Below are positions 1,952 through 40,962 of a stretch of DNA of 44,983 nt, one piece after another; positions within the stretch are counted from its first letter, which is position 1; the number at the start of each line of letters is the position of its first letter. Under the pieces are notes generated by a model. It did not search any database. It saw nothing but the letters and a program-made list of their open reading frames with translations, and had not been told where the DNA came from. This DNA is from a virus. The stretch spans positions 1 through 44,983 of the IMG/VR virus record IMGVR_UViG_3300017934_000001; one strand, 5' to 3'. The translations under genes and the position numbers were made by a program.

Positions 1952-2302
1952 ATGTCGGCGCTTTCCTCAGAGGTCTCTCAAGTTCCGAAGCCTGACGGCG
2001 TGCGCGCGTTGAAGCGATTCCAGAATCTCGGGACGAAAGAACTGACAGTATTGCGGCGACTCCGAGACGAAGACGAAGAACTTGTCTATGAACGCGGCCG
2101 CGCGTACATTGACGTGGATCGTGTAAGCAAGGCCGTAGTCTTCTCTTTACTTAGAGCGTGTGCGATTTCTTTGGACAGTTATTCACGACTCGGAGGATGC
2201 GAGCGCTATCACATCAACGGAACTGGACTTACATTACTTCAGAGCGCGAACGAGCAAATGTCTCAACCCGTCGAGACAGAAGAGAAGAGCGCCAAATCAT
2301 GA
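1952..2302 (+). CDS. Cassette gene with repeat-encoded ends
   Basis: The product has 116 residues and is built as leader, payload and tail. The leader (about 23 residues, ending PDGVRALKR) is encoded by a reversed 60-bp repeat, and the tail (LQSANEQMSQPVETEEK) by a forward copy. The payload, about residues 24-95, is charged and helical (ELTVLRRLRDEDEELVYERG) and may be a small DNA-binding or regulatory protein, but it is not recognised. The stop overlaps the next start as ATGA. Alternative starts inside the payload cannot be excluded. This is one of the cleanest examples of a gene bracketed by an inverted pair of the repeat. Confidence 0.6.
   Translation: MSALSSEVSQVPKPDGVRALKRFQNLGTKELTVLRRLRDEDEELVYERGRAYIDVDRVSKAVVFSLLRACAISLDSYSRLGGCERYHINGTGLTLLQSANEQMSQPVETEEKSAKS
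1954..2012 (-). repeat. 60-bp family, reverse copy R1
   Basis: Left bracket of the 1952 gene cassette. Read on the plus strand it contains the start codon region and encodes the leader ending DGVRALK. Confidence 0.85.
2239..2296 (+). repeat. 60-bp family, forward copy F2
   Basis: Right bracket of the same cassette. The middle holds the dyad TGTCTC...GAGACA. It encodes the C-terminal tail of the 1952 gene and leads into the start at 2299. Confidence 0.9.
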
Positions 2303-6208: not shown

Positions 6209-6625
6209 ATGCAGAAGTTAACCGAACTCCAACTGGAAGAACGCCGCTTGCGCTCCGAGAACGTCAACTTCAAACCGATCCCCGCTCCCAAGCCGATCAC
6301 CGCGCAACCCTCAGCGCATCCGGCCCGCAAGCCGCCAGCCTCAGCGCGCGAATTAGGACATGTAAACGTCCATGAGATAGACTGCCAGCACTGCGGCGGT
6401 TCGGGCTTCGATCCCGGCGCGCTCGATCCCTTCGGCGAACTGTGCCCGCGTTGCAAGGGATCAAAGAAGGAAACGGTACGCCGCGACTACCTGGCTGAAG
6501 CGTTCCAGATTTGCGCGCGTCCTGATCCGCAACAGAGAGTCGAGCGGGCGCATCTGGTGGCGATTGTCGAGCACTGCCGCGCGTGTGTGGCGGCTGTTAT
6601 TGCGTTGCCGGAGGTGGCGGCATGA
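6209..6625 (+). CDS. DnaJ-type zinc-finger small protein
   Basis: The product has 138 residues. CQHCGGSGFDPG and CPRCKGSKKE are the CxxCxGxG-like knuckles seen in DnaJ-type zinc fingers and in small phage regulators. The N-terminal 50 residues are Pro- and Lys-rich. The stop overlaps the next ATG (ATGA). Function unknown; RNA, DNA or protein binding is possible. Confidence 0.65.
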   Translation: MQKLTELQLEERRLRSENVNFKPIPAPKPITAQPSAHPARKPPASARELGHVNVHEIDCQHCGGSGFDPGALDPFGELCPRCKGSKKETVRRDYLAEAFQICARPDPQQRVERAHLVAIVEHCRACVAAVIALPEVAA

Positions 6626-10003: not shown

Positions 10004-10195
10004 ATGAGCCTGGATGAACACCTTGCCTCTGGCGGCACTGGCTGGTTTGCGACCGTTGGCGGCGCACTTGTGTCCTTCACCTTAAGAGCGTTTCAATGCC
10101 TCGCTATTGACTGTCAGGACATTCTGCGACGGCGCTGGACACTGTCTCAACCCATCGAGACCGGCGAGAAGAGCGCCAACAACAAAGAGAAATGA
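10004..10195 (+). CDS. Small hydrophobic protein with repeat-encoded tail
   Basis: The product has 63 residues. A hydrophobic stretch (GWFATVGGALVSFTL) may be a membrane segment. The last 17 residues (SQPIETGEKSANNKEK) come from a partial 60-bp repeat. The stop overlaps the recombinase start. Confidence 0.45.
   Translation: MSLDEHLASGGTGWFATVGGALVSFTLRAFQCLAIDCQDILRRRWTLSQPIETGEKSANNKEK
10143..10180 (+). repeat. 60-bp family, right part only (F7)
   Basis: Contains the TGTCTC...GAGAC dyad and the right core, but the left core is missing. It lies directly before the recombinase gene. Confidence 0.75.
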
Positions 10196-10842
10196 AACAG
10201 GCCGTACTCTACTTACGTGTCTCAACCACAAAGAAAACAGAACCAGGGGGAGAGACCTGGCTTCAGAACCTCGACCTGCAAAGGGAACCACTTGAGAAGT
10301 TGGTAAGACAACGCGGCTGGACATTGGCAAAGATCTATGAGGATCGGATGAGCGGCGCCGATCACACCCGCCCTGGTTACCGGCAACTGCTGGACGACGC
10401 CCGCAGAGGACTGTTCAACGTAGTGGTGGTCTGGAGATTCGACCGCTTTGCGCGCTCAGCCAAGCATCTGGTTCAAGCCTTGGAAGAGTTCCAGGAGCGC
10501 GGCATAGACTTCGTGTCCTATCAGGAAGCCTTGGACTCATCCACGGCGATCGGCAAGGCGATGTTCACCATCATTGCGGCCATGGCCGAGATGGAGCGGG
10601 ACATCCTCCGGGAGCGGACCCAGGCTGGCGTGGACTACGCCAAGACCCACGGTACGAAGTCGGGCCGACCGATCGGGGCGCCGGTCAAGGTCTGGAACCG
10701 CGAACGCGCGCGCGAATTGCAGGCCGCTGGCTGGCCCATCTGGAGGATAGCCCTAGAACTAGACGTGCCCCAAACCACCCTCAGGAGGGCGCTGAGATCG
10801 ACGCCAAAACCCCCTCCAGTGTATGGGGATTCCAGCGGTTGA
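10192..10842 (+). CDS. Serine recombinase, resolvase/invertase family
   Basis: The product has 216 residues. The N-terminal domain has the nucleophile Ser11 (YLRVST), RFDRFARS, and an IIAAMAEMERDILRERT segment leading to the E-helix. The C-terminal part (ARELQAAGWPIWRIALELDVPQTTLRRAL) is a helix-turn-helix. The length matches small resolvases and invertases rather than large integrases. It may resolve multimers of this circle or invert segments; the inverted repeat pairs elsewhere make inversion worth considering. The start overlaps the upstream stop and follows a truncated 60-bp repeat. Confidence 0.9.
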   Translation: MKQAVLYLRVSTTKKTEPGGETWLQNLDLQREPLEKLVRQRGWTLAKIYEDRMSGADHTRPGYRQLLDDARRGLFNVVVVWRFDRFARSAKHLVQALEEFQERGIDFVSYQEALDSSTAIGKAMFTIIAAMAEMERDILRERTQAGVDYAKTHGTKSGRPIGAPVKVWNRERARELQAAGWPIWRIALELDVPQTTLRRALRSTPKPPPVYGDSSG

Positions 10843-37732: not shown

Positions 37733-37792
37733 GTTTGGCGCTCCCCTCAGCCTTCGGCAACGAGTTGAGACTTGACGGCGTTCGCGCTCTGA
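37733..37792 (-). repeat. 60-bp family, reverse copy R10
   Basis: Encodes the LQSAN tail of the 37747 gene on the minus strand. Confidence 0.9.
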
Positions 37793-37968: not shown

Positions 37969-38028
37969 TCAAAGTGCGCACGCCGTCAAGGTCCAGGCGT
38001 ACTATCGAACTCCGAGGAAAGCGCCAAC
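37969..38028 (+). repeat. 60-bp family, forward copy F16
   Basis: Right bracket of the third antisense cassette. The middle (CCGTCAAGGTCCAGGCGTAC) is nearly identical to F17. Confidence 0.9.
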
Positions 38029-39140: not shown

Positions 39141-39986
39141 ATGAGCCCATCGACAACACAGCAAACCCCGATCGAGCGACCGCATTGGTACGTCCAGATC
39201 TTCCCGAATCCCAATCTGGTGGCAGGTTCGACATTGTTGGGCGTGGGGCTTCGGATCGATACCGATGCGCCGTTCCGCTGCGTGGGCGTCGCGGTCTACA
39301 CCGTCAGCGCGGCCAGCGTTCCCTTGGCGGGCGGCGGCAACGTTGCGCAGCAACTTCGCTTCACGAGACCAGACGGGACGTGGTTCCAGCGGGACATCTT
39401 GTCAGCTCAGCAAGTGAATCCGTTCGATGCAGGCGCCGTGAACGGCGCCGGAGGACAGAACGCACCGTTCTTTGAGTACTTCACGCCGTTACATCCCAAC
39501 ATCCTGTACCCGGCCGGCTCAGTCATATCGATTGACCAGCAAGGACTCGCTGCGAACGAAGATGTTCTGGTAGTGGTGGTCTTTGTCGGGACGAAGATGT
39601 TCCGGCCTGGTCAAGTCTGGTGGCCGACGTATCCACCCAAATACCGGGCGCGGCCTTACTCGGTCTCCGGCTTCAATGTCCAGATCCCCTTGGCGCAGAT
39701 CCCGATTCAAAACGTCAAGGTTCCGCAATCGACGCCAAACTATCCGAACCCCAACTCCGATGCGGATTTCGTGTGGCAGTTTGGATCCCAATCGGATTAT
39801 CGGCCGAACTTCGCCGGCTTGGGGATCAGGATCAAGGACTGGACGGGCAAACCGTTCATGAACGACTACGTTCCTCTTGAATTGATCTTTGGGTTTGACA
39901 ACTCCCAATCACCAGGACTGGTCTATCCTGAGATTTACATCCCACGGAATCAGGCGTTGTTTATCGACTTGAAGAGTCTCGTATGA
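39141..39986 (+). CDS. Two-domain beta-rich virion protein, interrupted at its C-terminus
   Basis: The product has 281 residues. VVVVFVGTKMFRPGQ near residue 152 and SDADFVWQFGSQ near residue 208 match the order in the 38054 protein, followed by LVYPEIYIPRNQALFIDL, where the homologue has LYPEVFIPRGGIITADF. The homologue then continues into LRFSLRGVKVY, but here the frame stops after KSLV at the edge of a cassette. The missing strand, LTLSFKGIKVYP, is encoded after the cassette at 40963. Confidence 0.65.
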   Translation: MSPSTTQQTPIERPHWYVQIFPNPNLVAGSTLLGVGLRIDTDAPFRCVGVAVYTVSAASVPLAGGGNVAQQLRFTRPDGTWFQRDILSAQQVNPFDAGAVNGAGGQNAPFFEYFTPLHPNILYPAGSVISIDQQGLAANEDVLVVVVFVGTKMFRPGQVWWPTYPPKYRARPYSVSGFNVQIPLAQIPIQNVKVPQSTPNYPNPNSDADFVWQFGSQSDYRPNFAGLGIRIKDWTGKPFMNDYVPLELIFGFDNSQSPGLVYPEIYIPRNQALFIDLKSLV

Positions 39987-39988
39987 TG

Positions 39989-40414
39989 CTACGTTTTGCT
40001 TTTATGTTGGCGCTTTTCTCGGGGTTCGGTTACGGTCTGCCGCTTTCCGGCGTGCGCGCGTTGAGGCTTCCGCTCGGGATTGAGCAAGGCTTCACGGCGG
40101 GCCTCGGCCTCGGAGTATCGCATGCACTTCCCGCAGTGGAACTCACAGCGCGGCCAGCCACAAACGACGTAGCGTTTGACCAGGACGGGAAGTTCCAGGA
40201 ACGCGATGACGAGCGTCTTACGCTGCCCAGTGACAACTTGGACGGCGTTGTCGTCGCGCTTGCTACGCTTGAGCTTCAGGACTTGGTAGAGCAGGCCGTC
40301 CACACCACGCAACACGTCTTTGGATTTGATCTGCAATGGCAGAACGATGATCCACTCCAGGTGGAGTTTCTTGCAAGCGCTGGTCGCGGGTTCTCCACAG
40401 AAGGTGCAGGTCAT
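39989..40414 (-). CDS. Zinc-finger antisense cassette gene
   Basis: The product has 141 residues. CTFCGEPATSAC at the start and CGWPRCEFHCGKC near residue 87 give two zinc-binding clusters around a beta-rich middle (VQVVTGQRKTLVIAFLELPV). The C-terminal basic tail (PERKPQRAHAGKRQ...) is encoded by R11. It is the last gene of the antisense cassette. Confidence 0.6.
   Translation of the reverse strand: MTCTFCGEPATSACKKLHLEWIIVLPLQIKSKDVLRGVDGLLYQVLKLKRSKRDDNAVQVVTGQRKTLVIAFLELPVLVKRYVVCGWPRCEFHCGKCMRYSEAEARREALLNPERKPQRAHAGKRQTVTEPREKRQHKSKT
40006..40064 (-). repeat. 60-bp family, reverse copy R11
   Basis: Left bracket of the tRNA-containing cassette. Confidence 0.9.
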
Positions 40415-40630
40415 CTATCGGCGCGGCATGCCCTTCATGCCGTAATCGTCACGCGGAGTCCACGGGGCTTTTCTCAAGATCGGCGCATCGGCGGGATTCA
40501 ACGTAGCGCGGTAGGCTTCAGCCTGCTCTTTCATCTTCAGCGTCAACCATTGACGGTAGGGCATTCCGCAGAAGTCGGGATGAACTTCACGGAGTGGAGT
40601 CGAGGCGGGATAGAGATCCGAGAGCGTCAT
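40415..40630 (-). CDS. Small antisense cassette gene
   Basis: The product has 71 residues (MTLSDLYPASTPLREVHPDF, ...QAEAYRATLNPADAPILRKA). It starts at an ATGA overlap with a 9-codon leader frame and abuts the 39989 gene. Pro- and Arg-rich, soluble, unrecognised. Confidence 0.55.
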   Translation of the reverse strand: MTLSDLYPASTPLREVHPDFCGMPYRQWLTLKMKEQAEAYRATLNPADAPILRKAPWTPRDDYGMKGMPRR

Positions 40631-40809
40631 AAGTGCTTGGGGCGTGATTCCGTCATCGCTGATCCACGCCCCTGCTCTGATTTACACCTAAGTTCCTCCT
40701 TTCGGTTCGATTGGCCGTCTCTCCGGCCTGTCACCGTTAGGACTAACGCACCACGGTCTAGCGGTCTGATTGAGGCACCGGAGCGCCAGCGTCCAGACGG
40801 AACGCCCAA
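40631..40809 (-). other. Spacer between tRNA and cassette genes
   Basis: In the minus direction this holds AAAGGAGG, a tiny frame of nine codons (MTESRPKHL) and several imperfect stems, but no gene I can support. A second tRNA was looked for and not found. Confidence 0.4.
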
Positions 40810-40881
40810 TTGCGGCGGTCGGAATTGCACCAACGATCTCCAGGTTATGAGCCTGACGAGTTACTGCTTCTCCACGCCGCG
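40810..40881 (-). tRNA. Initiator-type tRNA-Met (CAT), partly degenerate
   Basis: On the minus strand, 72 bases fold as a cloverleaf. The acceptor stem is GCGGCG/CGCCGC with an unpaired C1-A72, the hallmark of bacterial initiator tRNA. The anticodon loop is CTCATAA with CAT, on stem CAGG/CCTG; the D-stem is GAG/CTC with a shortened loop, and the T-stem is GTTGG/CCGAC with loop TGCAATT. The order closely follows bacterial tRNA-fMet. Departures are the short D-loop, T-loop TGC instead of TTC, and only two of the three usual G-C pairs above the anticodon loop. CCA is not encoded. It lies just inside F18. Confidence 0.78.
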
Positions 40882-40894
40882 AAACGATTATCGT

Positions 40895-40951
40895 TCAAAG
40901 CGCGCACGCCGTCAAGCCCAAGCTTTGACGACCAGCGAGAAAAGCGCGAAC
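40895..40951 (+). repeat. 60-bp family, forward copy F18
   Basis: Right bracket of the tRNA cassette, 14 bases from the tRNA 5' end. The right core is AAAGCGCGAAC. Confidence 0.88.
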
Positions 40952-40962
40952 ATATAAGACGT

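Follow-up and report, generated by a model that had tools for sequence, protein, structure and literature searches.

An initiator-type tRNA gene with an A18.G55 elbow in a repeat-bracketed cassette of a virus genome

Introduction

Is the tRNA-like sequence on the minus strand of this virus genome a real initiator tRNA gene, and what would a virus do with it? The stretch analysed here, called the window, is a virus record of 44,983 bases with 56% G+C and identical 123-bp ends, as expected if the virus genome is complete and either terminally redundant or circular. It encodes a helicase, a DNA methyltransferase, an endolysin, replication-initiation-like and tape-measure-like proteins and a serine recombinase. 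An earlier note on the sequence had considered an initiator tRNA borne by such an element unusual. This is not the case, as phage-borne initiator tRNAs are already known and frequent: a scan of viral contigs (viral_contigs) gave at least 120 rows of them, and 119 phage records match the window tRNA in blastn at E up to 1. Carriage by an element is not surprising alone; the window tRNA is a new example of a subgroup with an A18.G55 elbow, found in an unusual shuffled cassette setting.

Detection and identity of the tRNA gene

ARAGORN makes a single tRNA call in the window, tRNA-Met(cat) at 40809-40882 on the minus strand; on 40 copies of the window made with a first-order Markov model it gave 2 chance calls, about 0.05 per window. 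In a search of the whole window, the Rfam model RF00005 matches 40810-40881 (minus strand) over its full length with 53.3 bits and an E value of 8.8e-9, above the gathering score of 29; it thus clears the covariance-model cut-off that the earlier note had named. The earlier note had described an initiator-type tRNA with a CAT anticodon and a C1-A72 mismatch on the minus strand, to be checked with ARAGORN; ARAGORN, Rfam and the sequence itself all bear this out. The gene, of 72 nt at 40810..40881 (minus strand), was further placed by comparison with 120 other initiator tRNAs.

Segment by segment, the tRNA strand reads CGCGGCG TG GAGA AGCAGTA ACTC G TCAGG CTCATAA CCTGG AGATC GTTGG TGCAATT CCGAC CGCCGCA A. 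In the acceptor stem C1xA72 is unpaired and is followed by G2-C71, C3-G70 and G4-C69, while the D-stem has A11-U24, a purine 11 with a pyrimidine 24. All five are marks of bacterial initiator tRNAs, and the four acceptor positions matter for formylation. The anticodon loop is CTCATAA, and the anticodon stem, with A29-U41, G30-C40 and G31-C39, keeps two of the three initiator G-C pairs. Other features depart from the usual form: an A18.G55 elbow with a short D-loop (AGCAGTA) and the T-loop TGCAATT, an A13xA22 mismatch with A46, and a G-U pair in the T-stem. The base at 73 is A, and CCA is not encoded (ATTG at the 3' end). One real initiator-type tRNA gene on the minus strand is thus confirmed.

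The repeat-bracketed cassette

About 30 copies of a 55-60-bp repeat occur in the window in both orientations, and none in shuffled controls. They are made of two similar motifs about 33 nt apart; in the copy next to the tRNA (40896..40951) these are CARAGCGCGMACG and ARAGCGCCAAC, with a 32-nt spacer. Copies were seen at the ends of small genes, for example at 1954-2011 (minus), 2240-2296 (plus), 37734-37791 (minus) and 37970-38028 (plus), and they encode recurrent peptides, VRALK at the N-terminus and QSANAG...EERSANT at the C-terminus. It looks as though entire genes travel between bracketing repeats, as cassettes. The same repeat is found in two other virus records, 26 times in G029 and 23 times in G030. 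A serine recombinase of the DNA-invertase/resolvase type (10192..10842, plus strand; PF00239 1.4e-41, PHROG DNA invertase 1e-55) could be the agent that moves or inverts the cassettes; a 52% identical copy is present in G030, and none in G029 (41.8 kb, perhaps incomplete). The arrangement differs from integron gene cassettes, as the repeats lie in both orientations rather than head-to-tail and a search of the window at E up to 10 gave no match to the tyrosine integrase family PF00589.

The tRNA is the first item inside one such bracket, as the earlier note had it. It sits just inside the right-hand repeat copy (about 57 bp; 40896..40951, plus strand) and is followed by two minus-strand open reading frames and then by the left-hand copy (40006..40063, minus strand), which is inverted relative to the right-hand one. 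The description of these neighbours as small zinc-protein genes holds for the third item, which encodes a 141-aa Cys-rich, probably zinc-binding protein (39989..40414, minus strand), and fails for the second, whose 71-aa product (40415..40630, minus strand) is not Cys-rich. Both proteins have homologues in G030. That of the 141-aa protein is 45-46% identical, likewise lies on the minus strand and has a repeat copy at its end; that of the 71-aa protein is 53% identical over 47 aa. Since the two homologues sit in different cassettes, genes are mixed and matched between cassettes. A search of viral contigs for further copies of the two genes found them in G030 only; Pfam on the cassette proteins was uninformative, as was a related-loci scan with a 200-aa neighbour protein. 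A 324-aa open frame antisense to the cassette (39983..40957, plus strand) was rejected as a real gene and taken as a shadow of the minus-strand genes: the conserved Cys-rich reading, judged from the G030 homologue, lies on the minus strand, which by this reading is the coding strand of the cassette. Between the tRNA and the 71-aa gene, at 40682-40699 (minus strand), a Shine-Dalgarno-like GGAGG precedes GTG TAA, where the stop comes straight after the start, perhaps by chance.

No tRNA was found in G029 or G030. The earlier note would have counted a missing cloverleaf in relatives against the tRNA; the absence is real, but it shows only that the tRNA is an accessory item of the cassette, because in G030 the Cys-rich gene stands in a similar bracket without it. 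The two relatives also bear on a role that the note had offered, support of the very frequent reinitiation-type overlaps of this genome. Such overlaps are not especially frequent here: 4-nt overlaps of same-strand neighbours number 9/52 in the window against 20/57 and 22/60 in G029 and G030, so that the relatives, with no tRNA, have twice the rate. Reinitiation does require formylated initiator tRNA, as normal initiation does (PMC2268962); this need is common to both modes and therefore does not single out this virus. Reinitiation support was accordingly rejected.

Coupled changes in loops and stems

The departures in the D-loop, T-loop and anticodon stem had been read as divergence from a host gene. 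They were compared across 121 distinct initiator tRNAs, the window's included, drawn from the viral_contigs scan (at least 120 rows) and all other loci. Among the matches listed, G55 always occurs with A18-G19 (40/40, counting L110 and L125, whose D-loop AGGAGTA has GG at 15-16 and whose position 18 was read by eye as A), U55 always occurs with G18-G19 (81/81), and A13xA22 is accompanied by A46 in 10/10; these tRNAs are related to each other, and the counts are not numbers of independent events. A rough tree, built with the coupled sites included, implies about eight changes at them. With G55 fixed and position 18 left free, a pattern search found 25 viral stretches, and every readable D-loop among them is short with A18-G19. 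Pair 29-41 is A-U in 58, G-C in 38 and U-A in 27 of the about 121 initiator tRNAs among the matches listed.

Compared in this way, the odd positions of the window tRNA are concerted, matched swaps that would keep tertiary contacts, common to many viral and some cellular initiators. On the strength of the 18-55 and 13-22/46 couplings, decay of a host gene was rejected as the source of the loop changes. The couplings also weigh on a broader explanation, in which the tRNA is a passenger: an initiator gene captured not long ago, under no selection for a function, moved by cassette shuffling and already drifting. Its absence from both repeat-sharing relatives, the failure of the search to find another tRNA-bearing copy of the cassette, the lack of an encoded CCA, the T-stem G-U pair and the worst predicted cloverleaf of the 121 among the matches listed would all suit a passenger. 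Against it stand the coupling of every departure, in swaps that preserve tertiary contacts, the intact formylation determinants and a predicted promoter at the right distance, and we regard this explanation as unlikely.

The A18.G55 elbow was also seen in non-initiator tRNA-Met genes, in EBPR siphovirus 2 (L273:2501-2576) and in a Parcubacteria sequence (L102:1376-1450), and elongator-type tRNA-Met with this elbow is present in several Parcubacteria. Because it occurs in elongator-type tRNA-Met too, it is, on these comparisons, a general elbow alternative and not initiator-specific. A literature search on A18-G55, Patescibacteria initiator tRNA and anticodon-stem variants yielded nothing of use.

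Predicted promoter and fold

A sigma-70-like promoter, TTGACG-17-GATAAT with a 10/12 match, is predicted at 40887..40915 on the minus strand. Its -35 element and most of its spacer lie within the repeat arm, and the -10 element lies just inside the cassette. A transcript from this site would start at about base 1 of the tRNA; such sites occur by chance at a mean of 1.0 per 2.2 kb over both strands, which makes the match weak apart from its position.

With ViennaRNA, the unmodified window tRNA prefers a rod fold (-31.8 kcal/mol) to the cloverleaf (-21.8 kcal/mol), in a prediction that leaves out modified bases and tertiary contacts and is unreliable for tRNAs. The difference of 10.0 kcal/mol is the largest gap of the 121 initiator tRNAs among the matches listed; the next three are 9.7, 9.6 and 6.8, at least two of which belong to sequences whose acceptor register was shifted in the script's reading. 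The same gap of 10 kcal/mol is reached by 11% of stem-keeping shuffles. The rod preference may reflect weak selection, an alternative fold or nothing.

An alternative fold of this kind invites a reading close to the decoy or regulator of translation proposed in the earlier note. The RNA would be tRNA-like and switch between rod and cloverleaf, binding the initiation machinery, MetRS, Fmt or a nuclease, or it would be the 5' part of an mRNA and control the translation or stability of the two downstream genes. The predicted rod, 10 kcal/mol below the cloverleaf, agrees with this, and so does the position of the tRNA as first in the minus-strand gene row, where the only evident promoter starts at the tRNA. 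The conserved features, however, are those of an ordinary initiator and nothing more, the near relative L090 is predicted in the same way to form a cloverleaf, and the fold prediction has the limits given above. We therefore consider it quite improbable. A combined version is very doubtful: a bistable initiator-like tRNA on a shuffling cassette would act on host initiation, as decoy or mRNA leader in its rod form, and in its cloverleaf form as an initiator whose pseudouridine-free elbow goes unrecognised by host tRNA-targeting defences or modification enzymes.

Occurrence of A18.G55 initiators in viruses and cells

A genome scan found the A18.G55 initiator in 25 cellular contigs, nearly all of which belong to lineages of the Parcubacteria type or to unnamed MAG bacteria. 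The form is the only initiator matched in five Parcubacteria genomes, which suggests that an A18.G55 initiator can serve a cell. Across the wider phylum (Patescibacteria) the form is in the minority, with 1/40 matches. Closest to the window tRNA among the matches listed, at 87.5% each, are the Parcubacteria sequence L121 and two tRNA-rich phages, and A13xA22 is shared with the phages L090, L095, L124 and L129. In a tree of 120 initiator tRNAs, the window tRNA falls among viral and Parcubacteria sequences, in a group of 11 tips with 0.967 support, although 72 nt are too short for a placement. Patescibacteria were considered as the host because of the elbow, and this is not supported: a search of 192 Patescibacteria genomes gave no close match to the viral helicase of the window, the form is in the minority in the phylum, and a Rhodobacteraceae prophage carries it too.

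That prophage (L103, with tail sheath and tail genes) lies in a genome that also has an ordinary U55 initiator, and its A18.G55 tRNA was seen at 6415-6489 within the tail gene row. The form is likewise found among tail genes in L125 and adjoins the terminase large subunit in L133 and L141, and in four viral records, of 84, 39.8, 43.3 and 36.6 kb, it is the sole tRNA. In Pseudanabaena phage Pan5 (L145:5000-5072), an unannotated initiator-type tRNA overlaps the start of an annotated omega transcriptional repressor gene.

These surroundings also bear on two explanations that involve integration. The first is that the sequence was left by an attachment site, or is host DNA from the edge of a prophage, and not a viral gene; some U55-type matches in viral contigs lie near locus ends, as host initiator genes at prophage edges would. 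Here, in contrast, the tRNA is internal, bracketed by the virus's own repeat and followed by a viral gene, and the identical 123-bp ends fit a complete genome, so that this explanation is scarcely credible. The second is tRNA-dependent lysogeny, in which the host initiator tRNA gene is the integration site and the function lost there is restored by the copy that the phage carries. It is documented for other isotypes (PMC10865867), and tyrosine integrases are present in the solitary A18.G55 carriers G050, G066 and G070 (in G070 below the curated cut-off). The window, however, has no tyrosine integrase match at E up to 10, and its serine recombinase is of small invertase/resolvase size with a homologue in G030, which has no tRNA. 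Such lysogeny is highly improbable here and was rejected.

Proposed role

We judge it slightly better than an even chance that the gene encodes a working viral initiator tRNA, which supplements or replaces that of the host during infection. This reading builds on the gene itself, its initiator identity marks, the coupled tertiary changes and the recurrence in other phages. The score and completeness of the tRNA, its intact formylation determinants, the coupling of its departures, the placement of the promoter and the recurrence in unrelated phages speak for it; the 10.0 kcal/mol rod preference and the fact that G029 and G030 do without the tRNA speak against it.

Under the proposed function as a viral initiator, the tRNA would be transcribed from a promoter of which the cassette repeat supplies half, host enzymes would trim the transcript and add CCA, host MetRS would charge the tRNA and host Fmt would formylate it. 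It would then add to or replace the host initiator pool and be used in initiation. Within its modular cassette, bracketed by repeats, it would travel as an accessory item. The surface of the A18.G55 elbow would differ from that of a U55-type host initiator, and pseudouridine is impossible at 55 because this elbow has no uridine there. The benefit, most likely, would be that initiation is secured when the host initiator is limiting or attacked by tRNA-targeting toxins. VapC toxins cut at the anticodon loop, and since that loop is unchanged in the window tRNA, escape from them is not explained. Hosts are known to have toxins that cleave initiator tRNA (PMC8522696, PMC4105405), and escape of phage tRNAs from tRNA-cutting host nucleases has been proposed (PMC10264068).

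If the tRNA is functional, a medium-sized virus with a single tRNA has chosen the initiator, in a form that recurs in unrelated phages and some Parcubacteria. Viral takeover of initiation through a starter tRNA of the virus's own, with an altered elbow, would then become testable. The strict 18-55 coupling is a useful marker by which initiator tRNAs of this form can be told apart, in metagenomes, from the ordinary ones of hosts.

Comparison with known systems

Phages with tRNA-dependent lysogeny (PMC10865867) likewise keep a tRNA gene for an essential isotype, whereas the window is without a tyrosine integrase. The phage tRNAs proposed to escape nucleases (PMC10264068) resemble the window tRNA in that they, too, depart at defined positions from the form usual in hosts; known tRNA cuts fall in the anticodon loop, whereas the changes in the window tRNA are in the elbow and D-stem. 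The initiators of Parcubacteria/Paceibacteria (Adlerbacteria, Kaiserbacteria, Nomurabacteria and others) share the short D-loop, A18.G55 and often A29-U41, with up to 87.5% identity (L121); they are chromosomal and mostly have C13-G22, in contrast to the viral window tRNA with A13xA22. The virus-encoded, initiator-like tRNA-Met(CAU) genes annotated in the published genomes of Pseudomonas phage D3, Caulobacter CcrSC and Komagataeibacter phiKX1 are of the same kind as that of the window. D3, phiKX1, BUCT566 and DoCa5 have G18-U55, whereas the window has a single tRNA with A18.G55, and unlike the tRNAs of the D3, CcrSC and phiKX1 type, none of which is known here in such a setting, it lies in a repeat-bracketed cassette.
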